A program made the translations under genes and the position numbers. Below, piece after piece: positions 15,033 through 52,600 of a stretch of 64,000 bases of DNA. The notes under the pieces are model-generated. The model saw only the letters and a list, made by a program, of their open reading frames with translations. It did no database searches and was not told the DNA's origin. The stretch lies in assembly GCF_041146795.1 (NCBI RefSeq), contig NC_135186.1, positions 36,778,867 to 36,842,866 on the forward strand, read 5' to 3'. The stretch's first letter is position 1. Every line of letters starts with the position of its first letter. This stretch comes from Maylandia zebra. Its lineage: Eukaryota; Chordata; Actinopteri; Cichliformes; Cichlidae.

Positions 15033-18000
15033 ATGGAGCAACAAGTTGCTGCTTCCGAGAAGCTTCTGTAAGTTCTTTACACTCATTCAAAAACTACACA
15101 CACAGCTGAAGAAAATACAAGACAAGCAAAGAGCTAGTTGTCTAGACAAGACTGTCAGGGAGTTCTGGAGGTTTCTTCCTGTTAAAAGGGAGTTTTTCCT
15201 TCCCACTCTCGCCAAAGCCTTTGCTCACAGAGGGTCGTCTGATTGTTAGCTTTTCTCTTTTTCTCTTGATTACCCCTTTAAAGTCTGAACCATGAAATAA
15301 CTGACAGAAAAATCTAATTTATTTAAAATAGAGGTTTAGTTTTGTTTGAAATCTATTCTGCAATTTATTAAGATTTTTCTGAGAGAAAAATTCCCACCAA
15401 TGATGTAGAAGTCTCAAAAGCTCAAATACGAAACATTAGATGTTCAGGGGTTAATGTAGGCTCTTTACCCTACAATGTAAAGCACTGTAGGGTAAAGCTG
15501 GTGGCTTTGAGGTCGTCTTCACCTGTTCTCCTTCTTCAGGCCCAAGTCCTACAGGAGCAACTCTCCAGAAGAGATTCGACTGTTAGCCATCGCAGAAAAC
15601 TTCCAGCGTCAGTACTCGCACTTGTGTCCTGACCGCAAACAGCTGCTGCTCTGTCCTGTAAACGAATGTGGAGTAAAGGTAGGTTTATCTCACTCAACCT
15701 TTTTGTCTCTGAAGAACAGATCCCATCGGACCTTCACATCTGCAAACACCCTAAATACTTTCTGCATCGCCGTCTGTCTCTTCTCATATTCAGAAGTTTG
15801 TGTCGACGTCTCTTCGTCCAACGCCGACCATCCACTGTGAACTGTTCGACTGGCAGGGCTGTGCCTCTTTTGTGGCCGACTTCCTGTCGTTGGTCCCTCT
15901 GGATCCGCCCGTGGAGCTGGTCAGAGAAATGTTTGAGTTTTAGGAGCAAACCAAATATTTTTTGTATTCTGTGGTTGAGAGTTAAAGCACATGTTAGAGA
16001 GGACGTCTTTTATTCTGCTGTTTCTGATTTGTGAAACCGTAATTTTCATCATTCAGATAATTATTGCATATAATGTAATTCTAATATGACAGGCTGCTTG
16101 TGTTTAGCTGCACATTAACTGCGCGTCATCCTGTCATGTCTGTATGCAGACACCTCACATGACCAGCAACTGATGATGTCACACTCAGAGAAACGTGTTT
16201 CTGAGAAGCTGAAACTGGAGCTGGACTTGGTTCTGTTTGTACTCTAACAGAGATCATTTAGCAGACAGATCGGTGCAGCATCTGCAGGGATGAGGAGTGT
16301 TTAGGTGAAGGGAGAGTTCAGCCCGAAGGCAAAGAAAGTTCATCTGCACCCAGCAGCCTCTCACCTGCTCAGCTCCATGTCAGACAAACACATGGTCAAG
16401 ACTTCCTCGGTCCTTGTAGATGAGACCAGAGGAGAAAGTTCAGACTGCTTTAAGCTGATAGAAAAGAAACAGCAACTCAGATTTGGAGTACAGTGACCCA
16501 GCCTGTGCTAACAGCCACTGCTCCTGTGCAGCATCTGGACATCTTCACCTGACTGTCATGCCTCTGAGAGACTCAAGTGCAGATTTTAGAGAATCAGGAT
16601 GTTTTCCACAGCTTCACTTGTCAGACGCTCTTCTTTCTTTTATATACAGTCATTGTTCTGAACATGTTTCAGCTTTTCAAGATGGTGGATGACAAAAGAA
16701 ACAAGGCTGCAGAACATAATCACATTCACATCAATAAATGCACACATGCGTGCACCTTCTCTCAGTGTGTGTCTGATTGTGCGTGTCTCCCATTGCAGCC
16801 GAAGGTCCTTTCCTCTCCCACCTCGGTGCTGCAGAGTCAGAGAGCCACGTGTTTTGAGTATGCCACTCTGCTGTGCAGCCTGCTGCTCGGCGAAGACTAC
16901 GATGCCTACTGCGTCAGCGGCTACGCCGTCAAAGAGATGTGTCTGCTCGATCAGAGCATGCAGCAGTGCCCCCTGCTGGACCCCGAGGTCAAGGTAAGTG
17001 CGTGCAGCGTGCACATGTGGTCGACAATCAGATTGTTGACTGCCAGATGTGAAAGTGACTTCTTGGTTGTGTGTTTGCGTGCAGGATGTGCAGGATGTGA
17101 CCCCAGAACAGAAGGACCAGGATGATAAATACTCAGTGAAGCTGCAGCTGCAGCTCAAGAGTCGTTTTCTGGCCGAGCAAGAGAAGAAGAAGCAGGAGGC
17201 TGAAGCTGCGCTGCTTGTAAAACAAAAACAACAAGAGGTAAAGTGATCTTTTCTCTACAAGAGCGACTGCATCTATGCTGCAATAAAGGCTCTCATGAGA
17301 TATGACATTTATAGGCTAAGAGTCACATGCACAGGATCTATGTAAGAAAGTCTGTTTACAAGACGAGGTGGTGTTTACCCTGCAACAGCAGCTCATCCTG
17401 GGTGCCTTTAACATAAGCTTGTCTGTCTTTTACTTTCTGTTAATTAAAATTAAGTGTAAGATCATATAAAAGGATTTACATAATTTAATTTGACTTTTAA
17501 ACTGTAGCTATTTTTCCTCCTTTGTGTTTTTCATGTTCATCGATGTATCTCATGTGTTTTCTGTTGGATTTTTGTGAGACTGGTTTGAAGTGTTATACAA
17601 ATTCACTGAATATTCTGACTGAAGATCAGTAATGATGGTGTATGTTGTGTCATCACTATGAATTCTCTGTGCGAGCAGGAGAAAGATCGGCAGCTGGCCG
17701 ACCCGCTGCGAGGCCTGTGGGTGCACTGCTGGGTGCTCGTGCTGTCGGGCTGTCGGGACGTCCAGGAGAACGTCTTCGTCGACCCTCTGACTGGGATCAG
17801 CTACCCCACCAACAGTGACAACTTCCTGGGCATCGAGAGTGTGTGGAACAACCTCAACTACTTTGTGAACATGCAGGACTGCAGTAACGGCTGTGCTGTG
17901 AGTCCATGTGCACGGTTAGAGTCAAAATAGCAGAGGCAGAACGGAGCAGGTTTGATGAAATATTCTGCGTGTGTAGGACATGATGTTTGACCTGGATGAT

Positions 18001-21000
18001 TTGAAAACGTGGGAGCCAGTCTTGTTTGGAGCATCAAGCAAAAAGCAACTGATTCAAGAAGTCCTGAAGAGAAAAGAGGCTAAAATGATGGGCAAAGGGA
18101 ACCTGGTGCAGGTACCGAATGCATGTGTGTTTCTCTGGGTGTCAGAAAGCAAAAACCTTAGCTGATTGAAATTTGTATGTTCTCCTCAGCAGGCCTGGAG
18201 CTCTTCTAGCTTTCATACATATAAGCCCTAATGTCCTGAAAGGAAAATCAGAAATCAAGAAAATCTCTGGCTCTTTGGGGACAAGGTGCATTAAAATGTG
18301 CTTCCAGGCTGTGATACACAAATGGCAGCAACAAGCATGGAGCAGGGGTCACCTGTATTTCAGTATATCTGATCCACAGTTATTATCATCAAAAAATACC
18401 ACATATACCACCCAGAAGAAGTCAAAATACTGCTGTAGAAGCTGTAAATAGATTCTCCTGGCTAGCCTACGGGCTAAGAGGGACTCACATAAAGTCCCTC
18501 CTAATTTAAAGCTCTGGTTCAGACTGACATTTATAATATAACAAACTTTTATTTTCTAAATCCCTAATAGAAAAAAAAGGAACTTACCTAACTCCAAAGA
18601 AAATCAAATCTACAAAGATAATCTACCTAACGAGCACATAAACGTGAGAAAACGAGGATCACAAAACAAAAGGAGCCCACAGAGACAATCACAGCAGTGT
18701 AAGCCTGCAGAACCCAGTGAGTCGGCACGCAGTCAGAATGGCCACAGCTCCACAGACCGCTCTGATGACTGATCACCCAATCAGGACAGAGGAGGTGGAG
18801 CCTAATGCCTCATTTGGGATTTAACAATAAATACAACAATGTACGACCGAGACAGTCGTACATTTTTACTTCATTAAAGGAAATTTAAAGGAAATATTTG
18901 ACCTCTCTGTCTGAATGACAAATGAAAGGATGAGGCTCTTAAACAGTTAGTACACACTTACTTCCTGCTATCAACAACTCTGTTAACAACAGTTCTTCTT
19001 TCAACATTAGTAATTTAAACACTCAAACGAGACTCTCAGAGTGAAACGCTGGTGTCCTGTGCTGCAAAAGTTATGCTGATATTTTCAGCTCTGTGTTGTC
19101 ATTTCACTTCTTTTCATTTATTTTTTAGTACATTTCTATTAATTTCCTGAGACGAACTGATTCAGGTCATTTTGTGAATTTAAATTTAAATTCCAGCTCC
19201 AGCAAATGAAACACGATTTTACTGTGAATACAATAAATGTAAATTGAACTTTCTTTGTCTCGAAGGAGGGCGGGCCCAACGTTTTGGAGATGCCGAGATC
19301 CTGGGTCAGCTACATTGCCATCTCAACAGAAGGTAGGCTCTGTTTGTACGAACATTACCTTGTACATTGTTCACCAGTTTTACTTCAGCTTTAGGAGTTC
19401 AAGATTTAACCTCTAGAACCCAAACAGACGTCACCTGATGCTGTCAAACCTGCACAAATACTGCCTCTTCTTTATTATTCAGCCCTGAAGAACCGCTGGC
19501 CAGGAGGAAAGAAGGTGATCCGCTACAAACAAGCCCAGCTGGAGAGGTTTGCCACGTCCAAAAGGTTATACGGCGTTGTCACACGACTGATCAAATACAA
19601 AGACCGAGGCTGTGAGTGCCAGAGAAACACGCTTTTCTGTCTTCATGTAGACGTGAATGTGCTTTTCTTTACAAGGAAAAAAGGGGAATTCATGAGTTTC
19701 TGGAAAATCTTTCTCAATCGATTTGGTGCAGTTCTCCAGCAGGAACGTCTCCCAGCAGCGCTCCTCATGCACTCCTCAGACGTTCTCAGATTCCTGAGAT
19801 TTTCTCAGTGTGCTAATCTTTTTAAGTTGATTTGTAAAATATGTAGTTTTTGATATTTTTAATAAATTAGACAACTTCTTTTATATTTTTAGTTCGTTAG
19901 TGAGATGATTTATGGTTGTGTTGTTTGTAATGAGTAACCTGTGAGTGTGCGTTGAAGGCACTGAGGTCGCCACGGTGAAGGAGTGGTATCAAGGCAGGAG
20001 CGACTTCCTGGAGGAGAAGGAGGTGGACAATATCAATAAGATCACCACAGAGCGCTTCAGACATGGAAGAAAACGTCACCTGCTGTGTAAGCTGGCTTTC
20101 TGCAGCCGTCCTCAGAGGCGCTGTGTAGTAACATTTTTCATGTTAGGTCTTAATACAGTGCAGCCGAAGGCACCTAAAATACATCTGACAAACACCAGCA
20201 GCTGTTTTATTCTAGAAATCATCAGTTTAAGAAAGTTTGACTCAGCTAACATTACAGCTCGGCTCAGGCTGAACATCCTAGGTAACACGATGGCGTCATA
20301 ATCTGTGATATAGATAAGAGCCGATGGGCCCTTTTTAGCTGCTCAGCGTCTGATTGTGGAGTTTGCAGACAAACAGACAAAGAGAGACTTCATGTGTTAT
20401 ACCATCAGTCTAAGTCGGGGGTATTACTCATTCCAGAATGACTTGTCGTTAGCCAATGAGCATGCAGTTTGATGGTCATACCCTCCCCCAAAACAGAAAC
20501 AGCAGTGTTCATCACGAGCTCTCAGTACGGGACTTCGTAGTCCAGTGGGCAATGTTATGATGGCGATGTCTGTCTTTTACACAGTCTATGACTGAGTTTT
20601 GGCGTCAGCTGCAAGCTCCCGAGCAGCTCAGACATGCAACTGAATGTTGTCACTTGCTCCATGTGTGAGCCTTCAGCAGCTTTGGAGTGAGCAGGAAAAT
20701 AGTGACTCATTCTAAATGATAATGTCAGAGAAGTGATGAACGAGTGAGCTGAGAGTAGGTGTGTTTCTTTTTCGTTCAGTTTTGAGGGTCAAATCACTTA
20801 CTGTGGGCACTGAGGTTGAAATGCACTTCAGCGGTGCTCGCGTTGACGACCTGGTGCGGAGGGTGCTGTCGCCGAAAGAATTAATCGAGCTCTTCGAAGG
20901 CCGGAGCGACTTCCTCCATTACCGGCACGTCTACTTCAAAAAACATATCCAGCTGCTCAGCGAGAACTCACACATGGAGGAAGTGCCCATACTGGTAAAT

Positions 21001-24000
21001 GACAGGAAACAAACACGCAGATCACTTCGTAAATCTTCGTAAAGATTGCTTTGTTTTTAAAAGCCACAGGATGCTTATGTGGATGTGTTTGGTTTGTTTT
21101 GTTTATTGCTCATCCAGAAAGTGGTAGAGCGTTTCCATAGAAACGGCTCCAAACCAGCCAATGAAGACGTGGCTGAGCGAGTGTTCCTGATACCAGAGAA
21201 ACTGATTGAGTTGAACTACCACTTAACGGAGGACCGATTGATCCCTTCAAAGATCAGCTTCATCAAGCCACTGGGCTCAGAAAAAAGGAACGCACAGGAA
21301 ATCTCTCTTGACATGATCTCCACCTTCCAGGTACACGTCGCAAATGCATGACAATACATACAGCAGATATCACAGTTACATTTTTTCAGTCTAAAAGCTT
21401 CTAATCTGCCTCTGGGTTCATGCACTCCACTGATACTTAAGGTGGATCTATCTGCGAAGCCGTTTACAGCCGTAACCCTGCATAAGATGCTGGTGGAACT
21501 GATGGAGGTTGAAGAGAAGGTGACTCATCATGTTATGTGGTCGGTGAAAGAGGTAACCACACCCTGGATTAAAAGAGTAGTCCCCACAACGCCTTCATTC
21601 TTAAAGTTTTCCCAGGGTAATGAGGAAAAGTACCTGTAAGTTCAGTTAAAGATGTTCTGTATTGATGTGTGAACAGATGAGAGACGTTGTGACCCTCCGT
21701 GAAAAGGAGACTAAAGAAATGAAGCTGTGGAGCCGAGCAGCTGCCCTCGTCCACAGCAGGAAACAGAAAAAGGTGAGACACCAGCTGTTTCTTTCTCTGC
21801 TGCTCACATTCCCCGACTTTTGTTGCCCCCCTTCCACATTTTTGAGATGTGTTGCTGCCATCAAATTCAAAGCAAGATGTCCCAGTGAAATGCATTTGTA
21901 TTTTATTTGGATTTCACACAACATTCGACCTCCTTCACAATAGGGGATATCTAACAGCTGTTTTTACAATCTTCGACTACTTTAACACTTAGACCCCCGG
22001 AGAGCAGTCATTTTGGTTTTCTACCTTAGACCCCTGCGGAGTCATCATTTTGCGTTTCTACCTTTAAAAGCCGGAGAGCAGTCAGTCAAATGCTGGAGTC
22101 GTTCATATGTATATTAGGTCGTTACCTAGGAATTCTGGAGGGAGGGGAGTGGGGGTGAGTGATTGAGGGGGTGGGGGAGTGGAGTGTTGCATGATGTCTT
22201 GGAAGCAGTTTCGTGCCATAGTTCCAATTATCTGTGGGTTTCCCAGGTTTGCTGACCAGCAGTCATTTACCGATGGAACCCTGTAAACCCCCTGCAAGAT
22301 GACAATTGCAATAAATGCCATTAGTTCAGGGAGGTCCATGAACCAATGAACATGCTCCATGCACCACTCAGCAGGCCATTTGTAAATATGTGTACAAATG
22401 GTTGGTTTTTTGTACTGTTTTCATCAATAAATGTCAGCAACAAAGGACATACACCCATGTGTGTTGATTTCTCCCTAAGATGGCAAACTGAAACACTCCA
22501 AGTTGGTGACTTTTGGAGATTTGTTTCCCTGGATGATTGAGAATGCATCAAGATGAAACACAAAAGGAAGCTCACCGCTTTTGTTGCTGCCATAAATGCC
22601 ATTAGTTCAGGGAGGTCCATGAACCAATGAACATGCTCCATGCACCACTCAGCAGGCCATTTGTAAATATGTGTACAAATGGTTGGTTTTTTGTACTGTT
22701 TTTATCAATAAATGTCAGCAACAAAGGACATACACCCATGTGTGTTGATTTCTCCCTAAGATGGCAAACTGAAACACTGAAACACTCCACTCCCCCACCC
22801 CCTCAATCACTCAGTGAGTGATTGAGGGGGTGGGGGAGCTGCTAAAAGCGGTGAGCTTCCTTTTGTGTTTCATCTTGATGCATTCTCAATCATCCAGGGA
22901 AACAAATCTCCAAAAGTCACCAACTTGGAGTGTTTCAGTTTGCCATCTTAGGGAGAAATCAACACACATGGGTGTATGTCCTTTGTTGCTGACATTTATT
23001 GATAAAAACAGTACAAAAAAACCAACCATTTGTACACATATTTACAAATGGCCTGCTGAGTGGTGCAAGGAGCAAGTTTTGGGTGGCTTGCGACCTAAAA
23101 TCCAAGTACACAGATGCAAAAAAAATCAGGCCACTGTGCGATGTGTTCACTGCTACAGGTACACATGTGGTAAATGCAGACGACAGATACCGTGGCAGTG
23201 CCAGGATTGTGAGTGATTGCTGAAAATGTTGAAATGTACTCACTCACTTTTTATCATTATTTGTAAATATGTGTACAAATGGTTGGTTTTTTGTACTGTT
23301 TTCATCAATAAATGTCAGCAACAAAGGACATGTGTTGATTTCTCCCTAAGATGGCAAACTGAAACACTCCACTCCCCCACCCCCTCAATCACTCACCCCC
23401 ACTCCCCTCCCTCCAGAATTCCTAGGTAACGACCTAATATACATATGAACGACTCCAGCATTTGACTGACTGCTCTCCGGCTTTTAAAGGTAGAAACGCA
23501 AAATGATGACTCCGCAGTCAATTTAGCCAATTTAGCTTCCACTTCCACCATTTGACTGCTCTCGGGTTTTATAGGTAGAAAGGTAGAAGCCTGGGGATGC
23601 TAGTGTTAAGAAAGTTAAACATTTGACTCACTGAAAATTTAGTAGATTATATATCAAATAAAGACTTTTACAAATATTTACACACAGAAATGTTGTTTAA
23701 AAGAAGACCAGGTCCCTCGAGATTCCAGATGATTCACATCTGTTAGTTTTATTTTTTCTTAAGTACAAGTAACACAATCAGTTTACATCCAGATTGTGCT
23801 CAGGCTTGAATCTGGATAAACGTTCATGGCTAAGAACTTCCTGGTATACTTTTTTTTAATGTGTAATAGACAATGATCTGTTGAACAAGATTGTGTGACT
23901 GGCTTTCAGAACTTCAGTGTGTAATGTGTAAATGTTCACATATATACAGATCTCTGTACTAGTGATGTGAATTCCAGCTCCTTCGGCTCCCAACCGACTC

Positions 24001-28990: not shown

Positions 28991-29357
28991 TAGAAACGAC
29001 AGATCTTTAAGATAAATAAACGTCACTGTTCCTTCAGTGCAGCAGTTTGCAAATAAAAGTCCGATTGCACTGTGAGAATGTATTTCACAGGTTTAAAGAA
29101 AATAAGAACTTTAAAGACCCAAATCAGTTTTTCTTCTTTTTAACAGTAAATGTCAACAGGAGTGTAAATATGTGTAACATATAAGGTGGTACACAAAATT
29201 AAATTCAGCAGCAGCTCACACACGACGCACAGATGGATGTAGAGGCGAGGAGCGTGGAGGAGCTGTGGTATTTGGAGGAGGGACTCTTTCAGAGACGTGA
29301 GTTCCTGCTTTCCAGTGAAGAAGAAGAGAGGCAGCAGCAAACCATCAGAGCCTCATC

Positions 29358-31683
29358 ATGAAAGTGCGTCACTCCTCTCTGACCTGTGAGTACACTCACC
29401 TCTTTGTTCTGTCATGAATGTAAAAATTGCAGCACTGAAAATGGGCACAAACCTTCAGCTACATGGTGGATTTGATTAAAGTCAGACATTCATGATGCTG
29501 CCGAACTTTCAGAGTCAGAGTCTGACTTGTTTGGCCTCAACCTTCTCCTGGATTAATAAAAAAATTAGTGCTTGTGTTTTTTGTTTTTTAAGTTGGCCAC
29601 AAAAAATAAACCTTCAGTTTAATTACAACTCAGCACTGCAGCCTTTACAGAAAAACTTTGTAAGCAGATGCTAAAAACACTCTGTCGTAACTTCTCTGTT
29701 ACTTTCAGATCGAACGGTGATCCTGACGGGTCCCCAGGACGTTCGCGCCCTCCGAGGTACCAGCGTCCTCCTGGACTGTTGTTTCGCTGTAGATCCTCGG
29801 CTGGGCAGTTACCAGGTGGTCTGGAGGCAAGGCGACCGGAAACTATCAGAGTCTAAGTGTCGATAAAAAGTAAACAAAAGCACACACTCGCTGTTTCTGT
29901 CCATTCTCAGAACATTCTGAACACATTGCTGTGTAAATACTCGGCTCAGATTCTGTCAAAACTGACTGCACAGAGCTTCACATCCAAAAGTGAGACAAGT
30001 GAGACAGAGCGAGCCACAAACAAGCAGCAACTGAAGGCAGCTGCAGGAAAGTGAAGGAGAGCATCTCCAGAGAGGAAGCAGCATTTAGTGTGGTTCAAAC
30101 GTCAGATTATTTTCATCCAAGTATTCAGCTAAATCCTTCAAAATCTGTTAGTTTGTGCAATTACTTTTAGCCTCAGTAGTCACGCTTAGAGAAATTGCTG
30201 ATTTTTTGTTTCCGGGCACTTTCAGGTGTCACCAACAGTCACTGTTGTGAAACGGCACAGCTCTGCCGATGCTTCGTTTTTATAATCACAATCCCTGAGA
30301 AACTCTGCCTCTCAAAGAAGCTCTTATTTGTACCGAGCCATGTTACCGACCTGCTGGCAGTTAACCCAATGAGATGCAACATGTTCCTCCCACTTTCGCT
30401 CTTTCGTCTGTTCTAACATCTCCGTGTTGTTGCCATCAAAGTCAACATCAACATTTCTGGATTTGGGTTGTACACGTGTGGTTCTCCGTCTGTGTGTAGG
30501 TACATGATCTTTGACAACGGTACGCTCAGAGTAACGGACGTCCAATTACACGACACCGCTGAATATTCCTGTGAGGTCATCACGGATGTGGACAAGGTTA
30601 CCGCCCAGGCCTCCATCACCGTCATCGGTGTGTGTGTTTCTGCATATTTTGTAAAGGGGTGGACCCTCAGCACCAGCCAGAGTCTAATATTGTTTTTAAT
30701 GACTCACCTTCTATTGTCTCACTGGCTGATAACCACCTGCACCATCGGGCTGCTGGTTCTGATAGTCTTCATCCTCACATGGTGCAAGCACAGCAAATAC
30801 AGAGGTTATGTTTCCAGCATATTCACAATGTGTCACAGACACAAAAATTATTTTCAAATGTTCACATTAGTTACATATGTTCAATTAAAAAAAGAGCTGC
30901 AATGAAATACAGTTTATTAATTCAGCAGATTTCAGCAGGAGGTAGCATCCACATCCCACAGTATACAAAAAAGAAACACTGGAACAGTTTTCAATGCTTT
31001 TTACACAACGACTCAACAGTCGCTATTTATTCAACTGGATGACGTTTAAACGTTTCACAGCATAACTGTTACCCCTGCTTTACTGTTGTCCTCCAGCCTC
31101 ACGTGCACTTTGAATGATTGTTCCCTCTAACAGAGGAACATCCTTTGTTTGTTCCACAGGGTTGAGGACCAGAGGAAACTCAGAGGGCACAAACATGGAG
31201 GTGACTTTCTTTCTCTTTGGTTCCTCTCACTGTTGACAGACTGCTACTGTAACAAAGAAATAAAGCAGTCACAGTGTGATGGTTCAGTTTGTAGACTGTT
31301 CCAGAAATTACAGTCCAAGAAGGTGAATTCAAACAGGTAGGTGACAAAAATGGCCGCCCAGACGGAGACTCCAACAACAAACAGAGACACTGTTGTCTGA
31401 GAGGTTCAACGAGGCAACGTGGAAATATTTACCAGCACAAATGATTTAACCAAGTCAGAGTCTCTTCTTTTTATGTGAAGAAGACAGTTTGTCTCTGTTT
31501 CAGGACGTCCACTACGAGAACTGTACTCCAGGTTCTACACGTGAAGACTCGACCTACCAGAGCCTCGATCCAGCCGGCAGGGACCAGGACCAGACCTACT
31601 CTACACTCACACATGAGACTCTCTGGATTCACACCTGGGTTTGTTTCAGTGCCTCAGGTTTAAAGTTGGAACACAAACCCTGA
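29358..31683 (+). CDS. Receptor A: single-Ig ITIM receptor with an L1CAM Ig6-like domain (chimeric)
   Basis: Exons 29,358-29,385, 29,709-29,856, 30,500-30,804, 31,160-31,200 and 31,504-31,683 join in frame to 702 nt (233 residues). Exon 1 (MKVRHSSLT) and its 5' flank are paralogous to receptor B. Exons 2-3 form one I-set Ig domain: VILTGPQDVRALRGTSVLLD, VVWRQGDRKLSES, then KYMIFDNGTLRVTDVQLHD and AEYSCEVITDVDKV. This is the pattern of the sixth Ig domain of L1CAM-family adhesion proteins, split by a phase-2 intron and bounded by phase-1 positions. The frame runs on into a hydrophobic segment (ITTCTIGLLVLIVFILTW), then the tail shared with B: YENC, STYQSL (ITIM fit) and QTYSTL. A 7-base loss relative to B extends the C-terminus. 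The leader lacks a hydrophobic core and one donor (GTGTCG) is weak, so surface expression is doubtful. Confidence 0.6.
30205..30420. repeat. Dispersed repeat inside receptor A intron
   Basis: The block containing TTTGTACCGAGCCATGTTAC, GACCTGCTGGCAGTTAACCC and ATGAGATGCAACATGTTCCT is related to 52,850-52,945 in the PHF20 intron (TACCGACCTGCTGCTAATTA, then GATGAGGTGCAACACGTTCC). It is probably the end of a DNA transposon family. Confidence 0.45.
31096..31651 (+). repeat. Receptor tail duplication, copy A
   Basis: Covers the two cytoplasmic exons of receptor A, the intron between them and flanks. It matches 43,036-43,610 with about four substitutions and one 7-base indel. The 303-base intron (31,201-31,503 versus 43,151-43,453) shows no difference at all by eye. 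Confidence 0.95.
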
Positions 31684-34060: not shown

Positions 34061-35062
34061 TCATTTGATCTTGGATGTAGTAAGCGACGTACGAAGCACA
34101 GGGCCCAGGTTTGCACACACAGTAGCTGGTATTTTGGCCCATTCCTCCATGCAGATCTTCTCGAGAGCAGTGATGTTTTGGGGCTGTCGCCGAGCAACAC
34201 GGACTTTCAACTCCCGCCACAGATTTTCTATGGGGTTGAGGTCTGGAGACTGGCTAGGCCACTCCAGGACTTTCAAATGCTTCTTACGGAGCCACTCCTT
34301 TGTTGCCCGGGCGGTGTGTTTTGGATCATTGTCATGTTGGAAGACCCAGCCTCGTTTCATCTTCAAAGTTCTCACTGATGGAAGGAGGTTTTGGCTCAAA
34401 ATCTCACGATACATGGCCCCATTCATTCTGTCCTTAACACGGATCAGTCGTCCTGTCCCCTTGGCAGAAAAACAGCCCCATAGCATGATGTTTCCACCCC
34501 CATGCTTCACAGTAGGTATGGTGTTCTTGGGATGCAACTCAGTATTCTTCTTCCTCCAAACACGACGAGTTGAGTTTATACCAAAAAGTTCTACTTTGGT
34601 TTCATCTGACCACATGACATTCTCCCAATCCTCTGCTGTATCATCCATGTGCTCTGTGGCAAACTTCAGACGGGCCTGGACATGCACTGGCTTCAGCAGC
34701 GGAACACGTCTGGCACTGCGGGATTTGATTCCCTGCCGCTGTAGTGTGTTACTGATGGTGACCTTTGTTACTTTGGTCCCAGCTCTCTGCAGGTCATTCA
34801 CCAGGTCCCCCCGTGTGGTTCTGGGATCTTTGCTCACCGTTCTCATGATCATTTTGACCCCACGGGATGAGATCTTGCGTGGAGCCCCAGATCGAGGGAG
34901 ATTATCAGTGGTCTTGTATGTCTTCCATTTTCTGATGATTGCTCCCACAGTTGATTTTTTCACACCAAGCTGCTTGCCTATTGTAGATTCACTCTTCCCA
35001 GTCTGGTGCAGGTCTACAATACTTTTCCTGGTGTCCTTCGAAAGCTCTTTGGTCTTGGCCAT
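34061..35062 (-). CDS. Tc1-like transposase, C-terminus replaced by nested insertion
   Basis: A 333-residue open frame begins [20 protein letters not shown] and has a paired-type helix-turn-helix N-terminus. Catalytic landmarks include the first Asp in [12 protein letters not shown], the second in [12 protein letters not shown] and the Glu in [11 protein letters not shown], with 34-residue spacing as expected for DD34E. No internal stop is present. After IPATVCANL the Tc1 sequence ends at the Harbinger junction (34,106/34,107), and the last 14 residues are encoded by the Harbinger terminus. The remaining native residues (VKTYSKRLTSVIANKG and a stop) lie on the other side of the insert at about 32,480-32,536. 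The intact upstream frame suggests a fairly young copy. Activity is unlikely given the split. Confidence 0.93.
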
Positions 35063-35597
35063 GGCGGAGTTTGGAGTCTGACTGTTTGAGGCTGTGGACA
35101 GGTGTCTTTTATACAGATGATGAGTTCAAACAGGTGCCATTCATACAGGTAACGAGTGGGGGACAGAAAAGCTTCTTACAGAAGATGTTACAGGTCTGTG
35201 AGAGCCAGAGATTTTCCTTGTTTGAGGTGACCAAATACTTATTTTCCACCCTAATTTACGAATAAATTCTTTACAAATCCTACCATGTGGATTCATGGAT
35301 TTTTTTGTTCACATTCTGTCTCTCACAGTTGAAGTGTACCTCTGGTGCAAATTACTGACCTCTGTCATCATTTTAAGTGGGGGAACTTGCACAATCGGTG
35401 GCTGACTAAATACTTTTTTGCCCCACTGTAAAACCTTAGCATACGCAGCACGCAGCAGCTACAAGGATGGTGTTCTTATTCTATTATTATTACAGTGGTT
35501 GAAACATCATAAGTCTGCCTTCACTTTGTAATCCACATCAGTCCTGCTGCAAATCCCACATTTCCACAGCGTTCCTGTGACTTTTGGTGTTCTTTAG

Positions 35598-38648: not shown

Positions 38649-38824
38649 TAAGGAGGAAGCCTGAGGCCCTGCAGCAGACTCACAGACGGATGCAGAGGGG
38701 AGGAGTGTAGAGGTGCTGTGGTGTTTGGAGGAGGGACTCCTTCAGTTAGAGAAGTGAGGCGTCACAAGTTCCTGGTTTCCAGTGAAGAAGAAGAGAGGCA
38801 GCAGTGAACCATCAGAGCCTCATC

Positions 38825-41800
38825 ATGAAAGTCCGTCACACTCTGATCTGCTGCTTCTTCCTTTGTGAGTACATTCACTTGTTCTTTCTGTCACTCTCCT
38901 TCTTCAACATGTTTCTGTTGTTAAACATGATGATCAGAGTCAGCTATGAGTCACTTTCATGGACGCTTCTTCCATTCAAACTGCTTTTATTCATGATTTC
39001 ATGGATGTGTTTGTGGCCAGTATGGACAGAAGAAACCATCACAGTGAGACATTCATGGACATGTTGCTGCTCACTTTGGCTTTAGGATTCGTCCTTTCAA
39101 AGATGGTTTCTTACAAGTGTTTGTTACGTCCTCAAAATAACCTGTAACATCAAAGTAAAAACTCCACCTGATACTTTCAGTTATTATTTGAAAATACAAA
39201 CTTGTTGATCAAGTCAATGAATTTTTCTTTGAAAGACAAAAACACATTTTGTTGCTTTTACTGTTACATGTTCATGTTTCTTCACTGTGACTATTCACAG
39301 TTCACTCCCACAGTGCATATAGATTTGACAAAATGACATCACTACCTGCAGACAAATATAAACCTGTGAGAGACGTGAGTGAAATCTGTCAGCATCTTCA
39401 AACCCAGAGTTGTGTGAAAAGTTATTTGCTAATTCTTCCTGTTTGTCCTGTTGGAGCTGAACAGAAATACGACTGCACAGAGTTTAAATGCTGGAATGAA
39501 CTGAAATCATTCACATAAAGTAACTGACTCACATCAGCTGCTGAGTTTGGCTTCAGAGCTTTAAAATAGAGTCATAAATTACTCAATAACATGTCGTTAA
39601 TTGCAAGTATTTGTTACTTCCTCAAAAAAAAAAAAAAAACGAAGTGTCTTGCCCAAGGACACAACGACTGAGACTGTCCAAGCCGGGGCTCGAACCAGCA
39701 ACCTTCAGGTTACAAGGTGAACTCCCAACTCCTGAGCCACGATCACCCTCAGTAAAACAAAGTTACAACAAATAAAAACTTCATCACTGGTTTTGTTGTT
39801 GCTTCATGAACTTTGACACCAGCAGTACATTTAAACTAAATGATGACATCACTTCCTGTGGATGAAACACATGAAAAACTTGCATGTTGAGCTGTTGCTT
39901 CAATCTCTCAACACATAATTACTACAAGTACCACACAGAGGAGTTATGAGTCATTTACATGTTTTGTTTATCTTCATCTTTTATTGTCATTTTATTCATG
40001 CATAGGAAACATGTTCAGATATATTTTGAGTCGTGTCGACTGGAAGAAGATTTTCCACCACTTTAGACAATAAAATGTATTTGACATGAATCATTGTTGT
40101 TATTCAGACTTTAGTCTCAGTGTGTCTGTGTGTGAATGTTGTGATCAGACTGCAGCTTCTTACAGGAAGTACAAACAGTAACTGTTGATGGTTCATGTTT
40201 CCAACAGCTCTGCAGGAGGGAAACCCTGAAGTCACCGATGCTCAGATTCTTCACTATGGAGTCATTGGAGGAGATTTTAAAGCTGGATTCTCCTTTAATT
40301 CTCCAGGAACATGGAAGATGTTCTGCAGAGAAGAATGTGAAGGAGAAAACATTCTCATTAATACAACTGATGTCAGAGCTCAAACAGGCAGATACAGCAT
40401 TGAATATGAATGGACTGGTTCTCATGGTTTATATGTGAGCATCTCAAAGCTGACTGAGTCTGACTCTGGACAGTACAGCTGTGGTTTGGCTGGATCTTCA
40501 TCATCAGCTTCACTCACACAGTTTGTGATCGTTGTTGCTGAAGGTGAGTTTCTGTTTCAGCTGTGGAAATGTTTAGTTTCTGTTCCTGAAGCAAAGTTTG
40601 AGTTTCACTGACAGCTGCTGACGGTTTAAAGAAGCTGAAGTTTGTTCTTCTGTCAACTGTTGGTTACATTTGGACTCCTCTAAGTAACCGATGAACTGCA
40701 GCTGGGACACGAGTGTGTGTGAATATTAGTGAGTGTGTCAGCTGATAATGATGTGAATGAAATGTTGATGTCAGAAACAGACGCTGATGAATGAAAGAAG
40801 ATTTTCTGATGTAACTTTGATTTTCTTTGATGAGTTTTTGCTTCTGTGTCGTCGGTTTGATCTTTCCAAGAGTTCCCCTCACAGCAAAATGGATTCTTCC
40901 TCAATGAATGTGTGAAAATCACATTCACAACACAAACGTCCATCCAGACTTTAAATGTACTTAAAACCATGAAGGGTTCACAGTTTAGAGTCTATACTTG
41001 TCATAAAAGCTGGTTTTCATGAATCCAATCAGTCTGATGATGAAGCCGTTTAAATCTCACTTAGTTCAACAGTTCCTCTGTCAGACTGGTTGAACTGGGC
41101 AGCTCCCAGTGTAACTGTGGATGAAACTGGAGTTACTCTGATCAGACTGCATCATCTTCAGCACAGATAGTAACTATTGGTTGTTTGTCTCTTTAACAGC
41201 ACTGCTGGATGGAAACGATGATCAGCTGAAACACTTTGATAAAGAAACTGGAAGCTCTCTCACAGTCGGATGTTCCTTTAAACAACCTGGAAACAGAGTG
41301 TTCTTCTGCAGAGGAGAATGTGTAGGAGAAAACATTCTTGTTCTTACACTTGATATCAAAGCTCAGAGAGGCAGATACAAAATTGAATATGATTCAGGAG
41401 TTCTGTATGTGAGCATCACACAGCTGACCAAGTCTGACTCAGGACGGTACAGATGTTACCTGAGTGGATCTTCCAGCAGTTCATTCAGAGACTTTGAGGT
41501 CACTGTCACAGACGGTGAGTTTTTACTGACATTAATCAAATGTTGTCAGAGTGGAGCTGTTCAGCTGTTCCTTATTTCCTGTCATATATCTGCTGTTCCA
41601 GTGGTGGATGTTCATGTTGAACACGAGCAAAGTTTCTAATAATGAGCTCAGTGTCTGTACAGTGATCCCTGTGAGCCAACAGCTCAGGCTGCTCTCAGCA
41701 CTCAGTTTATCTCAACATAGAAACAGAATTATTTAGAAACAAGATTATTTAGAAGTGTGAACTTTGTAAAGTTACTGTGATGGAGAGCAGGAATCAGAGT

Positions 41801-43573
41801 GTGGAGCTGGAAATGAACAGGTGACCATTAATGTCCCTAAATGTCTTTATTGTTTCCAAGAACCTGATATTTCAACATACATTCATATTTTATTTCATTG
41901 TTAAACTATTTTAGTGCATTTTTTTAAATCTAACACTAAATTTGCCAAACTGGTTTTTTCTCAGTCAGTGGATCCATTTAAGGCTCGTTTGATTTCTCAG
42001 CTGATTTTTGAATCTTTGTGTTTTTCTTCTTCACAGCTCCAAACATTTATAAGTCAAACTTTCCTCTCTGCTCTTGTTCAGCAGCTGGACCATCAGCCAC
42101 GACTACAGGAAGCTGCACACCTTCATTAACTTTGACTGGAAGCACTGAGCAGCCTGAAAGAGCAGCATCTGCAGGTACATCCATCTATGAGTCTGAGAGT
42201 AGAAACACTGACAGATTCTTTATAACCTGAGTGAAAACTGGTTTAATTATTATCATAATTACTCCTTAATGTGTCCTGTTATATGCTTTTCATTTAGTTT
42301 GACAAGTGACATTAGCAAACAATCTGAAGTGAATATGTTCTTTAGAAGCTGTAAAATGCTAAAATAACACAACCTCTATTTCATATTATTTCAGTCTGTA
42401 GGTGATGAGTTCTTACTGTACAGCTCTATATACTGTACGCATGTCTTCAGCTTGTTGTTCTTCTCAATCAGCTGCAGATGTGCTGCTGGTTGTGGGTCTG
42501 ACTCTGGCTCTCATCATCATCCTCTCATCACTGACTGTTCTAATAATCTGCATCAAGAGAAAGAGCAGCAGAGGTAAGACAACAGAGACACAGAAACACA
42601 CAGAACGTCTCGTTTCTAACCAAAACTCTTTTTTCACTTCACTTGAAGTCTGTTCAAACAGCTGCAGTCAAACATCAAAATATTTCATCCTGCTTGTCCA
42701 CTTTGGGCTCTAAGAGGAGAGTGGAGTGACTTGTAGAGATGATGTTAAACACTGGAAGTAACTGAATCCTAAACTGTGTCACACATGAACTCTGGACACT
42801 GTCAGCAGGATCAGATCCAGATGTTCTCTGCTTCAGACGTGTGAAGTAAAAACAGGAAAAATATACTGACTACACGACCCATGAAAACTGTAAAATAGTA
42901 TAATTATTGTGGATCACTTCTTCAGTACACAGGAGGAGACTCGAGCAAATGTGAGTCTTTGATTCTGAAGGCAAAGTCTAAAATGAAGCCTAATAAAGTC
43001 CAACTAAGCAGGATGAAAGAACAGGAGGGGCAGCAGTGATCTTCAGCCTCACGTGCACTTTGAATGATTGTTGCCTCTAACAGAGGAACATCCTTTGTTT
43101 GTTCCACAGGTTTGAGGACCAGAGGAAACTCAGAGGGCACAAACATGGAGGTGACTTTCTTTCTCTTTGGTTCCTCTCACTGTTGACAGACTGCTACTGT
43201 AACAAAGAAATAAAGCAGTCACAGTGTGATGGTTCAGTTTGTAGACTGTTCCAGAAATTACAGTCCAAGAAGGTGAATTCAAACAGGTAGGTGACAAAAA
43301 TGGCCGCCCAGACGGAGACTCCAACAACAAACAGAGACACTGTTGTCTGAGAGGTTCAACGAGGCAACGTGGAAATATTTACCAGCACAAATGATTTAAC
43401 CAAGTCAGAGTCTCTTCTTTTTATGTGAAGAAGACAGTTTGTCTCTGTTTCAGGACGTCCACTACGAGAACTTTACTCCAGGTTCTACACGTGAAGACTC
43501 GACCTACCAGAGCCTCGATCCAGCCAGCAGGGACCAGGACCAGACCTACTCTACACTCACACACCACACATGA
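38825..43573 (+). CDS. Receptor B: CD300/pIgR-like two-Ig receptor with ITIM
   Basis: Seven exons (38,825-38,864; 40,208-40,543; 41,200-41,514; 42,037-42,174; 42,472-42,573; 43,110-43,150; 43,454-43,573) join to 1,092 nt, 363 residues. The leader is MKVRHTLICCFFL. Two V-type Ig domains follow (residues about 14-125 and 126-230), each with the extra cysteine pair of CD300/pIgR proteins (FCREEC, FFCRGEC) and a YVSI...L..SDSG-Y-C end. Ig1 has Gly-Phe-Ser-Phe where Ig2 has Gly-Cys-Ser-Phe, so its B-strand cysteine is lost. A Thr/Ser-rich stalk (231-276) and one membrane helix (VGLTLALIIILSSLTVLIIC) follow. The tail has VHY328ENF, the ITIM fit S340-T-Y342-Q-S-L345 and QTY356STL. An inhibitory leukocyte receptor is the likely role, and all external intron phases are 1. 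AATAAA at 43,714 fits polyadenylation. Confidence 0.87.
39640..39745 (-). mobile_element. tRNA-derived SINE head fragment
   Basis: On the minus strand the piece begins TCGTGGCTCAGGAGTTGGGA (A box TGGCTCAGGAG) and has an intact B box GGTTCGAGCCC (39,686-39,696), then GTCCTTGGGCAAGACACTTC. It ends at a poly-A/T run at 39,625-39,640. It lies in the first intron of receptor B. Confidence 0.75.
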
Positions 43574-43610
43574 GACTCTCTGGATTCACACCTGGGTTTG
43601 TTTTTGTACT
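43036..43610 (+). repeat. Receptor tail duplication, copy B
   Basis: Partner of 31,096-31,651, 11.94 kb away in the same orientation. It includes both cytoplasmic exons of receptor B. Similarity stops abruptly after CCTGGGTTTGTTT at the 3' side and at CAGCCTCACGTGCACTTT at the 5' side. Confidence 0.95.
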
Positions 43611-46684: not shown

Positions 46685-49600
46685 ATTCTTTCCCTTAGGG
46701 GTCGTCACAGCAGATGATCTGCCTCCATCTCACTGTGTCCCTGCATCCTCCTCTGTTACTCCAACCACCAGCTCCATATTCAACAGCCTTTGCCCAAGAT
46801 ATCCACTCTCACTCTCCTACACACATCATAACCACCTCAGCCTTTCCTCCCTGACTCTGAGCCCTCCCTCTGATGCACTAATTTCTAATGCTGTTCATCC
46901 TGCTCACTCCTAGTCAACATCTGAACATCTTCAGCTCTGCCTCCTGTACAACCAAACATCACAATGGGCCTCACTACAATCTTTTAAACCTTCCCTTTCA
47001 CTATTGCTGCTCTCCTTCTGTCACTAATCACCCCGACACTCATGTCCACCCTCCTTGCACTAACACACTCAAAATAACAAAAATTAATTGTTTGTTTTAC
47101 TGAGCTTCTGCTGTTATGATGTACCCACTCATTCAAGCTTTTAAAGTAAAGTGTGGGTTAGCGACTTCTTAATAGTCCCTTTGTTATGAGTCTGATCTGT
47201 GGAAATCCGATGAGTGGATGATTCATTTAAGTTCCCACAGCAGTTCAGCCAACATACAGGAAACTTTCAGATACTGGTGGTGATTTTTTTTCCAGGATTT
47301 TAATAAAGTATTTAACTTTGTTATGATTTTTAATCCACCAAATAACAACAAAAAAAGGAACAGACTTATATTAAATGAAGTAACACTGACTCATTGCCTT
47401 AAAGATATGCAACCAGCTGTGCTCATGTGTGAATTCAAAAAGCCCAACCTTTCCTGTGGTGCGTAAATATCCTCTAATTTGTAGCTAAACAAAAGCTAAT
47501 TTTGAATGTGGAAATGATAAAGATTTTTGGGAGAACATACTTCAAATTTAATGGTGTACTAAAAGTTTGTCCTCCTTTTAGGTACACGGCCACCATTGAG
47601 AAGATTGATTATGACAAAGAGCGGGTCCTGATCCACTATCTGCAGTGGAGCCGTCGCCATGACGAGTGGTTTCAGTGGAACTCACCGTACCTGCGGCCGA
47701 AGGAGCGAGTCAGCCTGAGGAGGCAGGGCCTGAATCCAACGCGATCACAGCCGGTATAGAACATGTTAGACGTACACAGATGTTTCTTTTTAAATAGTTT
47801 TTAAAACATCGGTATCAGTGTCATGGCAGGGATGCTGATACTGAATAAGATTTTATTTTTCTAAGATGCATGAACTGAAATAATATATTTAATTCCTGCA
47901 TATAAATCCTAGATACTCTGCATTTGAAGTAAATGTGAAAATATCAGAGCCTGTACTACAACTTGGTTCATCGTATCCACAATATATTTCTGTTATCATT
48001 TACCCCACCATCAGTCAGGACGTGGACAGACGATGAGGCTATCATTTTAAATACATTTGAGGAGGTTAGGCTCATAATACAGACTGACAGTGAAGCAGCT
48101 GCTGTGGACAGAGCAGCAGAAACTGGGTGTGTGTTTTAGGGCTGCCACGATTAGTCGACTAGTCACGATTATGTCGACTATCAAAAATTTCGATGACAAA
48201 TTTAATAGTCAACGCGTCGTTTGAAGCTTTGTAAGATCCAGAAAGACGCAGGAATAAATATTAGGATTTAAGAGTGTAATAGCGGACTGAAACAGAAGGT
48301 GGCAGCACTGCATGTACAAAGATGCCAGCTGCCATTAAACCCCGAAGAAGAAGAAGAAGCTGTCTCCAGTATCATAGCTGTTGTCCAAATTTACGGGCTG
48401 CATCGTTAGGAGGCAGCGTTTGATTACGTTACAGCGACGCGACGAAGGCTTTCCAAATTTGAAGATTTCTCCAAATGCGTCCTACTTTTCCCCGAATTTG
48501 AAGGATGAGTCGGATGTATCCTTCCTGGCCCAAATGATCCCAGAATTCATAGCACGACCCAGCCAATTCCTGTTTCCAACAATGGCAGCAGCTACATAGT
48601 TTTAATATTACTCTTTCTGGGTCACAAAATAAACTTTTAACACATTTTTAGGCGAGAATGTAGCTGTGCAAACTTCAAATGTCTGCTCGGTTTATGAAGA
48701 CATCACAAATTTGTAAAAGTGCCCCGACGTTTTCGGAGACTTCTGCTACCCACCCGCTCGATAGCTGGAGGGTTCTAGGCTCACTAGAGCCGGCGTAAAA
48801 CACCAGACACTACCTGTTATATTTTAGATGGCAAGGAGCAGACGGCTGAGTTTATTAAACTCCACCGAGACAAAATTCATTAAAAGTTTAATAAACTATC
48901 ATCTTGTCTTTAGTTAGCACAGACCTTAAACACTTAAAGCTGTAAGTTAATGATAGTTATATAAGAGCAGATGCATCCTGGTGCAATAAGCTGTAAGTTT
49001 TACAGCCAATGGATGATGATCTAACTAGTCGACTATCAAAATAATTGTTTGTGGCAGCCCTAGTGTGTTTTAATAATGTTGGTCAAGAAGACTAGAAAGA
49101 TTATGACAATAATAAGTTGAAGCTAGGAGAATGTTGACTGCGTAAGCTAACAGATGTTTTCTCTGCGACTCAGACGTTTGTTTCAGGCTCAAAGGTTCTG
49201 GCCTGTTGGACCGACTGTCGTTTCTACCCGGCCAAAATCCTCCGTGTCAACAAGGACGGTGAGGTTCAGCTGTGACCTTTTACCTCTGCTGTTTTTCTAC
49301 TGTATTCTACTGCTGGTTGATTTACTGATTTTGGGGGGGGGGGGAGGGGGAAGGTCAGTGCAGCTGTTTATCACAAGGTTGTCTGATAAATCACTAAGCA
49401 CCTACCATCTGCACCCCTCACTAACTTTTGGCTATTCAATGGACCCATGCATATGTTTTCTTTCATAGTATATATCGTAACGATTCAGATTTAGCTTGCT
49501 TCTGCACTTAAGAAGTAAGGCGGTCTTAATAATACTGGGAAAAAAATGAGGTGAGAGGCCCAAAATTTCAGCCCACCCCTCTGTGCTTCTTGTTCCAGTA

Positions 49601-52600
49601 ACTTGACTAGTATGGAGGTCGGATTGTGTGTGGGTTCATTAATTACACTAAGTTACTCTACAATATAAGTCAGCTAATCCTGAGTGCTTTTCCTGATTCA
49701 ATGATATTAATGATATAATGCTGCTTACATTATTTTTACAGTTGAAGCTGATACATTGGACTGTTAAAAGCGTTTCATTAAAGAAAAGTCAAATAAATCC
49801 TGATTAATTCATACTAAAAACTCTGGTTTGGAGTCGAGTTGCTGCCTGAGGTGGGAGAGGTGAGGTATCTCTGGGCTTTGTTTGAGGCACTTAGGTGGAG
49901 ATTGAAGCAGGAGATTGACAGAAGGGCTGGTGCAGCTGGGTCCGGTCTGTTGTGAAGAGGGAGCTGAGCTTGAAGGCGAAGCTGTCAATTTACTGGTTGA
50001 TCTACATTCCCTCTCTCATATGTGACCCCGAGCTGTGGGTAGTTACCAGAAAATAAGATTGTGCATTCAAGTGGCAAAAATTGGGCTCTCCCTTCAGACA
50101 GAGCTCAGAGCACAGCCGTGCTCCTTTGCATCAAAAGGTGCCGGTTGAAGTGGTTCGGTCGGCTCTGACCCAGATAAGCTCAGTGAATGGATGGGCGTCT
50201 TTTATGTCCTCCCTTCATGCTGTTTGACTCCCGCTGTCCGTCTTTGGGTTGTTTGTGCTGCGTTCCTGTTGTTACTGAAGCGAATCGGCTGTTTTTGGAA
50301 CATGATTGATCTAAACCTGGTGTTTGTGTTTTCCTGTGTCAGACTCCTACACAGTGCGATTCTATGATGGCGTGGTTCGGACTGTGAAGCCCACCAAAGT
50401 CAAACCTTTCCAGGAAGTAAGAAATGCTTCTCTCTAATTGGTCCTCGTCTACTCAGTGTTTCACACAATCACAACGTCTTTGATCCTTAATGTGTTTGTT
50501 TTTGTTTGTTTGTCGTTCTTAGAAATCCAGATCTGAGAAAAGTGCTGTGGGAAGCGAGGGATGGGAGGAAGGTGAGAGTGAGGAGGAGGAAGGAGGAGAA
50601 GGACAGGAAGAAGAAGAGGAGGAGGAGAAAAAGGAGGAAGAGGAGGCAGATGAGAAGGTGACAACAGAAGAGACCGATGCAGCTTTGGAGAGGGAGGAGG
50701 ACAGGAAGAGGAAGGCAGAACCTTCATCCTCAAATCCACCTGCCAAGAAGAAAACAGATGACAGTAAGTAAGATGACCTCTGACCCCAAGCGCCCGCACA
50801 CTGTAGATCTGTCCAGATGTTTGGAGGCTCTGCAGCTCGTCAGCAGGAGCAAATTAAAATGGTTAACAATGGTCTGTCTCTCTTCCAGGCAGAAGCAGTG
50901 GAACTCAGAATCAGCCAATCACAGCTAACTCCACCCCCCCAGCAGCAGCAGCACTTAACCCTGCCCACATAGACAGAGGTACACTTATCTCTGTAAACAG
51001 ATATCTGCACAGGAATATGGAGAATACATAAAGGGTTTCTGGTTTCCACTTGTAGTCCGGGTTGAGTATGCACGAAAAAGTGAGGTCCTGTTTGCCGAAA
51101 TGAAACCTGAAAACCTTCAGCTACAATGTAACAACAACTTAGGCTTTTATAAGCTTTTCTAAATATGTCTGCATTAGAAAAGCCACAACTGGGGCAGGGG
51201 GCTGCAAGTCTCATCCAGAATATCAACAGACGACACCGGCGGCTCTGCACCAGCAAATCCTACAGCAGCAGACTCACTGATGGTGCCTGAAGTCGACAGA
51301 GGAGGACTTTAGACATGCGTGTATTGGTCCAAACATGAGAACTCCACAGAACATGTGCACATTTTACATGGTTCTCTTAGCTTTAAGACGATGTCTGTGG
51401 GGACTGTCTCACTCAGGAGGACAGCAGACATAGTTCTTATTAGACCTGGGTGAGATGGACAAAACTGGAACATGTTTTTCATACCAGTCAAATCACTATT
51501 TCTGTCCAGCTTAAAGATGACCTCTACTCCAAAGTGAAGATAAAATGTTAATTTTGACTTAAATATTAATTATTTTGTGTCACACATTGAACGTGACTAA
51601 TGTGCTGTAGAATATTATACAGGTGTACTTTGAGTACATAGTGCTAGTGTATGTGAGCATATAATAAAGTAAAATCTTAATTTTGACCGGTAAGAACATT
51701 CAAGCCAACCCGAGGATAAAACCACGGTGAATGTGAGAAAATCCAGTTCTTAACAGATGAAACACAGTTTAACTTTGTTCGCAGGTGCTTCTCTTATTTG
51801 GATCAGTAAGTGGTTATGCTTCTGTAACGTACTTGACCTGTTTGTTTTATTTAATCTTTGTTTCAGATGTCCTGCTGGAGCGTCAGGCTCACCTTCCCAC
51901 CACACACAAGTTCAGCAGAGAACCATGTAAGTCCCTCAGTCCTCCACATAAACACAAAAGGTTAGAACGTCTCGATGCATGCTCAATCATCCAGGTAAGT
52001 AAATCCCAGGACTGCTACGACCAGATGAACAGAATCAAACTTTGGGGACAAAAGTTTAGAGTTTAAAAGTTGTTTTTTTTTGTCTAATGAAAAAAGTAGG
52101 ACAGATAAAGACTGTCGGCTGCTCAATCCACACTTGTAATGGGGCGGGAACAGATTGAACATGAAAGGATATCAAATGTTTTAATTGAGAAAATTTGATG
52201 GAAGCGACACCTCTCAAGAGAACATGTACAGGGTGATGTTTCCTCTGTGTCTTAAACATCTCCGAGCCAAGGAGACCAGCAGCTGGACTCTTGGAAGAGG
52301 AATCTTGTCCCATTTTTAGGTTAAAGCTGCTCAGCAGTCCTGGCTCTTCTTTGGTGTCACCATGCTCCAAATGTTTTCAGCCGTGCTGTTGGAATCGATG
52401 CTTTATGTGATTTTAGCATTGTTGTGCTGAAACATGAAGAAGATGTAGAAGTCAGAGATGCAGGCTTTTAAACTGAGCGCTGATATTGAGCCACAGGGTC
52501 TCCCTTCTCTTTTTCCAAAAGTCATTAAAACATTTGTCTGACATCGGAACAGTTTTCTGTGAGTTTTGGTTCAGAGAAGACGACGTTGTTTCTGACCGTG

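Follow-up and report, generated by a model that had tools for sequence, protein, structure and literature searches.

Exon make-up of the hybrid locus

The window, as we call the whole 64,000-nt stretch analyzed here (C20:36,778,867-36,842,866, forward strand, in the 962 Mb genome of Maylandia zebra), contains a locus on the plus strand in which an Ig domain of the L1 type lies between a leader and a tail of the CD300/pIgR-like type. The locus begins with a block consisting of 5' flank and leader exon (29,224-29,386), which is common to a CD300/pIgR-like neighbor, receptor B (38,677-38,850; identity 81.4%, E 3.5e-44). The leader exon itself (29,358-29,385, encoding MKVRHSSLT) ends in a phase-1 donor, is 28 nt long vs 40 nt in receptor B, and is missing the hydrophobic core. 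The first half of an L1-type Ig6 domain (29,709-29,869, phase-1 acceptor) and its second half (30,500-30,627, entered in phase 2 and left in phase 1) follow, then a 5'-truncated remnant of an L1-type transmembrane (TM) exon (about 30,722-30,804) and a tail cassette (31,091-31,646). The cassette includes the first cytoplasmic exon (31,160-31,200; GLRTRGNSEGTNME) and the last exon (31,504-31,683), which encodes the ITIM STYQSL and the ITIM-like QTYSTL and has lost the usual stop. Receptor B (38,825-43,573, plus strand; annotated M. zebra protein P0017), a paralogue of the hybrid's leader and tail, comprises two V-type Ig exons, a TM exon and the same tail.

The preliminary description had joined five exons in frame into 233 residues, and this frame was reproduced, as was the phase-2 intron that splits the Ig domain. 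Two of its exon borders had to be redrawn. The first Ig exon, which had been ended at 29,856, extends to 29,869 in the alignment with l1cam and is followed there by gtaaac, so that the donor lies at 29,870 instead of 29,857; the supposed single exon 30,500-30,804 breaks up into the second Ig6 exon, which ends at 30,627, an intron that is retained in this frame, and the truncated TM exon.

The assignment of the Ig domain to the I-set and to L1-type Ig6 held up. The best Pfam match is I-set, with 39.8 bits (cut-off 23.7); V-set also scores above its own cut-off, at 30.1 bits, and is weaker. Among solved structures, the best relative is neurofascin, the matched domain being Ig6 (domain i-E 2.1e-5), with a DCC domain nearly as good (1.4e-4). 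The ITIM pattern [SIVL]xYxx[ILV] is matched by STYQSL in the window and in the related proteins P0002, P0003, P0038 and P0044 described below, whereas QTYSTL is merely ITIM-like. Matches to Ig1-5 in the window are weak and at chance level at most, and no remnants of these domains were found in the 10 kb upstream; an Rfam scan gave no match.

Relationship of the Ig6 and TM exons to l1cam

A search of the M. zebra genome with the Pundamilia hybrid P0038 as the query yielded at least 78 matches. Among the matches listed, all those with more than 60% identity outside the window and outside the query's tail part fall within C20:37,322,486-37,330,662. The gene there (C20 37.318-37.344 Mb) is l1cam, on the same strand and about 0.5 Mb downstream of the window; besides Ig exons and an L1 TM exon, it has exons that match P0050 in its FNIII part, and it encodes a FIGQY tail. 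For the Ig6 part of the query (residues 365-470), the matches listed outside the window comprise the two l1cam exons (56% and 66%), one more L1-like gene, at 38%, near C20:2.99 Mb, and two stretches of C16, at 36% and 28%. As previously proposed, the nearest relatives of the Ig domain outside the hybrids are L1 genes, and the match in the same genome is l1cam Ig6, with equal intron phases.

The likeness extends to the nucleotide level. In blastn comparisons with l1cam, window positions 29,704-29,887, covering the first Ig6 exon, match C20:37,329,113-37,329,295 with 69.6% identity (E 8.5e-16); positions 30,471-30,637, covering the second Ig6 exon and its intron flanks, match with 77.8% (E 1.3e-32); and positions 30,722-30,776 match the l1cam TM exon with 79.3% (E 5e-6). 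The introns before, inside and after Ig6 are in phases 1, 2 and 1 in the window and in l1cam alike, and the exit phase of the TM exon is 1 in both. What the two loci have in common, namely the exon borders, the phases of the introns and the intron bases next to the exons, identifies the Ig domain at 29,709-30,627 as L1CAM Ig6.

The TM exon, by the same kind of comparison, is L1-derived as well. When the codons of the window TM were shuffled, the score against l1cam was reached in 0 of 2000 shuffles and that against receptor B in 128 of 2000. At the protein level, each of three hybrid TMs scored 0 of 1000 shuffles against l1cam, vs 67 to 383 of 1000 against two CD300-type TMs, and a derivation of the hybrid TM from the CD300-type family was rejected on this basis. 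The TM of l1cam itself resembles both CD300-type TMs (2 of 1000 shuffles each), so that TM likeness alone is not absolute.

Identity to l1cam is uneven along the more complete hybrid of Pundamilia. P0038 is 77-89% identical to l1cam of M. zebra over most of Ig2-Ig4a (one Ig3 exon, 64%) vs only about 58-67% in Ig4b-Ig6, a drop that may reflect either unequal ages of the two parts or gene conversion between the hybrid and l1cam. A second, whole hybrid was not recognized in the M. zebra genome among the matches listed.

A tail cassette shared across the cluster

The leader and the ITIM tail of the window hybrid match the CD300/pIgR-like neighbors, in agreement with the earlier claim that receptor B has paralogous counterparts of the flank, leader and tail (81% for flank and leader, 98% for the tail block). 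The window tail block (31,091-31,646) and that of receptor B (43,041-43,603) are 97.9% identical, intron included, and the cassette occurs, at about 98% and likewise with its intron, in two further places on C20, namely, near 37.265 Mb (L015:5174-5721) and near 37.209 Mb (L016:4899-5461), to which the coding part of the window tail is 98.6% and 97.8% identical, respectively. The Ig6 exons of the window, in contrast, differ from those of l1cam by 22 to 30%. This combination is consistent with gene conversion among the tails of the cluster, and it looks as though conversion keeps the signaling tails alike.

L1-ITIM hybrids in other cichlids

Three protein searches, which returned 36 matches from 335 candidates, 8 from 1,811 and at least 41 from 7,991 scored, revealed genes of related design in other cichlids. 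The largest is a gene model of 797 aa from Archocentrus centrarchus (P0044), with L1 Ig1-6, one FNIII domain, an L1-type TM and the ITIM tail. A 558-aa protein of Pundamilia nyererei (P0038) comprises Ig2-6, TM and tail, the model beginning within Ig2; in Oreochromis niloticus (P0005), Ig4-6 and the TM are present and the model stops before any tail. The Sarotherodon galilaeus gene model (P0002) consists of Ig5-6, TM and tail preceded by a damaged piece of Ig4, in which DTADATNVH stands against DTAVYQCEATNVH in relatives and one cysteine is lost; this damage may reflect separate erosion or a mispredicted model. Finally, the 158-aa NCBI model of Astatotilapia calliptera (P0003), named 'neural cell adhesion molecule L1-like', has the window's leader peptide, Ig6 and tail in frame and skips the TM. 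Among the 43 proteins P0038-P0080, several of which are partial models, only P0038 and P0044 have an ITIM-type tail. The 36 matches of the first search include receptor B (P0017), whereas an M. zebra protein for the hybrid locus is absent from them.

Three of the hybrids are on contigs equal in length to contigs that bear pIgR-like genes or similar tails (P0002 and P0022; P0003, P0008 and P0009; P0005, P0013 and P0014). No hybrids beyond cichlids were found among the matches listed, within the word and length limits of the search, and literature searches brought up no description of an L1-ITIM hybrid gene among the best-ranked matches listed.

The comparison with related species that had been suggested recovered hybrids mostly in multi-domain L1 forms: a single Ig6 preceded immediately by the CD300-type leader was observed in just two cases, the window copy and A. 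calliptera. The proposal that an Ig6 module was shuffled into an ITIM receptor stands insofar as the locus unites an L1-type Ig6 with a leader of the CD300 type and an ITIM tail. What differs is the direction: in the Archocentrus, Pundamilia and Sarotherodon models, a duplicate of L1 with more than one Ig domain bears the ITIM tail and keeps the L1 TM.

In a tree of 27 Ig4-6 sequences, the hybrids group with support of 98 and then join cichlid l1cam with support of 96; with Ig6 alone (22 sequences), the corresponding supports are weaker, 86 and 78. The tree alignment retains a row from Hoplias that represents another Ig domain and forms a long branch. The grouping of the hybrids implies that they descend from a copy of l1cam that was duplicated in the cichlid lineage. 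Of the hybrid-bearing cichlids, Archocentrus is Neotropical whereas the rest are African, so the fusion predates that split. As far as can be read from these sequences, the L1 duplicate acquired its immune tail early in cichlids, and the shorter forms came later.

Comparison with known receptors and a structure model of a whole hybrid

L1-family proteins consist of six Ig and four or five FNIII domains. With teleost l1cam and the L1 family at large (L1CAM, neurofascin, NrCAM and CHL1), the hybrids share Ig4-6 (in Archocentrus, Ig1-6 and the first FNIII), the intron phases of Ig6 and the TM exon. The domain counts are smaller, with a single Ig in the window and Ig1-6 plus one fn3 stretch in P0044; the FNIII part is cut to one domain or none, and the FIGQY ankyrin-type tail of l1cam in the same genome and of P0050 is replaced by the ITIM tail. 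With CD300/pIgR-like (CMRF35-like) teleost receptors, such as receptor B, the hybrids share nearly identical tail exons and, in the window copy, the leader block, but their ectodomain is an I-set L1 Ig rather than a V-set one and their TM is of the L1 type. An adhesion ectodomain combined with an ITIM tail, as in the hybrid, is also found in the ITIM-bearing Ig adhesion receptors PECAM1 and CEACAM1, which are not L1-derived. Among fish, the carp receptor SITR is related to CD300 and has an unusual Ig arrangement for which its authors suggest exon shuffling; in contrast to the hybrid, SITR as described there has no L1 domain, ITIM or TM (PMC3031540).

The structure of P0044 was modeled from an alignment of 18 sequences (mean pLDDT 79), with a pTM of 0.54, so that the arrangement of the domains should be taken as approximate; the N-terminus of P0044 is hydrophobic, and the model contains a TM helix. 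In a Foldseek search with the ectodomain, the best E-value was obtained for neurofascin Ig1-6. The first four Ig domains superimpose on the homophilic neurofascin crystal structure 3p3y with a TM-score, normalized by the target, of 0.90 (2.4 A over 388 columns), and among the 50 matches listed the best six-domain superposition is that on contactin-1 Ig1-6 (0.78). A whole hybrid, which combines an extracellular L1 horseshoe with an intracellular ITIM, would most likely act by ligand-triggered inhibition via SHP phosphatases. We infer from general knowledge of L1 proteins and ITIMs, which is also the source of the ligand, cell type and signaling suggested below, that the whole hybrid would be an inhibitory surface receptor.

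State of the Maylandia copy

The window copy differs from its relatives in several features that would compromise a membrane receptor. The first Ig6 exon contains, at 29,855-29,856, one extra A that has no counterpart in l1cam or in the proteins of A. calliptera and Pundamilia. Where P0003 and P0038 have SESSVDKKYM, the window, read to the l1cam-aligned donor, gives KLSESKCR followed by a stop; the donor of the preliminary description, 13 bases upstream, bypasses the extra base. The segment DPDRFSTKN, with which the TM exon begins in relatives, could not be located in the window, and none of the five AGs between Ig6 and the TM segment gives the TM frame, so that the window TM can be read only by retaining the Ig6-TM intron. 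Pundamilia P0038 has a TM. The best 8-residue hydropathy within the first 26 residues of the leader is 1.14 in the window vs 2.75 in receptor B, that is, a signal core is lacking. Seven bases are absent at the usual stop, which makes the window tail 20 residues longer than that of receptor B. Misassembly could be the cause of the extra base, but not of the TM acceptor and leader lesions.

Comparison of Ig6 with l1cam over 89 codons, averaged over both lineages, gave dN/dS of 0.38 (NG86) and 0.54 (YN00). Values below 1 indicate some constraint for part of the history, so the copy was not neutral throughout. In our reading, the window copy would once have coded for a protein and lost this capacity recently, and it most likely yields no membrane receptor. 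The lesions listed above argue against the intact receptor that had been assumed.

Origin and alternative explanations

Taken together, these observations suggest, with a probability that we put at about 80%, that the Maylandia locus in the window is an L1-ITIM hybrid gene of cichlids in an eroded state, and not a functional receptor formed by insertion of a single Ig module. The sequences show a duplicate of l1cam, with its Ig domains and TM exon, joined via phase-1 introns to cytoplasmic ITIM exons of a CD300/pIgR-like family on the same chromosome. In the whole hybrid, the L1-type Ig horseshoe would bind L1-family ligands on other cells, Src-type kinases would phosphorylate the STYQSL ITIM, and SHP phosphatases would damp the activation of the hybrid-bearing cell. 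The shorter forms would be younger, and Malawi-type haplochromines have a leader of the CD300 type immediately before Ig6. In the Maylandia copy, the frameshift, the absence of a usable TM acceptor and the absence of a signal core would then most likely preclude a membrane receptor.

The reading that comes next takes the window copy as functional, the extra base being an assembly error and the product a short Ig6-tail protein like the A. calliptera model, perhaps a soluble or intracellular decoy. That model, which holds leader, Ig6 and tail in frame over its 158 aa with no TM, and the dN/dS below 1 speak for this possibility; however, such a protein would have neither signal core nor TM, leaving the ITIM tail without obvious use, and we consider it improbable. 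Slightly less probable still is the earlier view that a single L1 Ig6 was shuffled into a CD300-type receptor and that the window encodes a working one-Ig inhibitory receptor, using the donor at 29,856 and retaining the Ig6-TM intron. The window frame indeed stays open on these terms, over five exons and 233 residues with a TM segment whose 19-residue hydropathy is 2.45, and this speaks against decay. Against it, the TM is L1-type, multi-domain L1 hybrids occur in other cichlids, the window leader has no signal core, P0003 skips the TM, and P0024, a near-identical sequence, does not keep the TM in the retained-intron frame.

There is little to recommend the idea that no hybrid exists and that L1 fragments and CD300-type tail exons are mere neighbors fused by gene predictors. 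The tail cassette does occur elsewhere, and around the copy near 37.265 Mb (L015) neither V-set nor L1 exons were detected within 10 kb. Yet P0002, P0038 and P0044 have the same TM-to-tail junction, and the TMs of Archocentrus and of the African hybrids match (0 of 1000 shuffles). Convergence of an unrelated immune Ig domain on L1 Ig6, also raised in the preliminary description, could appeal to the general likeness of I-set domains and to the closeness of DCC to neurofascin, but is ruled out for practical purposes by the intron positions, phases and flanking intron bases common to l1cam, by the L1 genes being the nearest relatives and by the tree.

The eroded-hybrid reading makes it possible to follow how exon shuffling apparently made an inhibitory receptor of the immune type out of a neural adhesion receptor, with the donor gene, the tail cassette, intermediates and a decayed end state all present in cichlid genomes. 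It also makes testable whether an existing recognition ectodomain joined to an ITIM tail can yield a new checkpoint. A bolder version, which we regard as speculative and rather doubtful, is that the hybrids form a new cichlid checkpoint family: a leukocyte or microglia inhibitory receptor whose full L1 Ig1-6 horseshoe would recognize L1 on neural or other self cells, with an ITIM tail kept CD300-like by gene conversion, and which would later have lost its domains one after another during the African radiation. As a practical warning, a cichlid gene annotated as 'neural cell adhesion molecule L1-like' can turn out to be of the immune type.

Other features of the window

On the minus strand, 2.4 kb from the hybrid gene, lies a Tc1/Sleeping-Beauty-type transposase frame (34,061-35,122) of 353 residues with no stop, which contains the Pfam domains HTH_SB, HTH_Tnp_Tc3_2 and DDE_3. 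The window further contains a C-type lectin exon (5,557-5,940), DRC7-like exons (16,568-21,042), and an MBT domain with a C2H2 finger (47,478-53,834), a pair reminiscent of PHF20.
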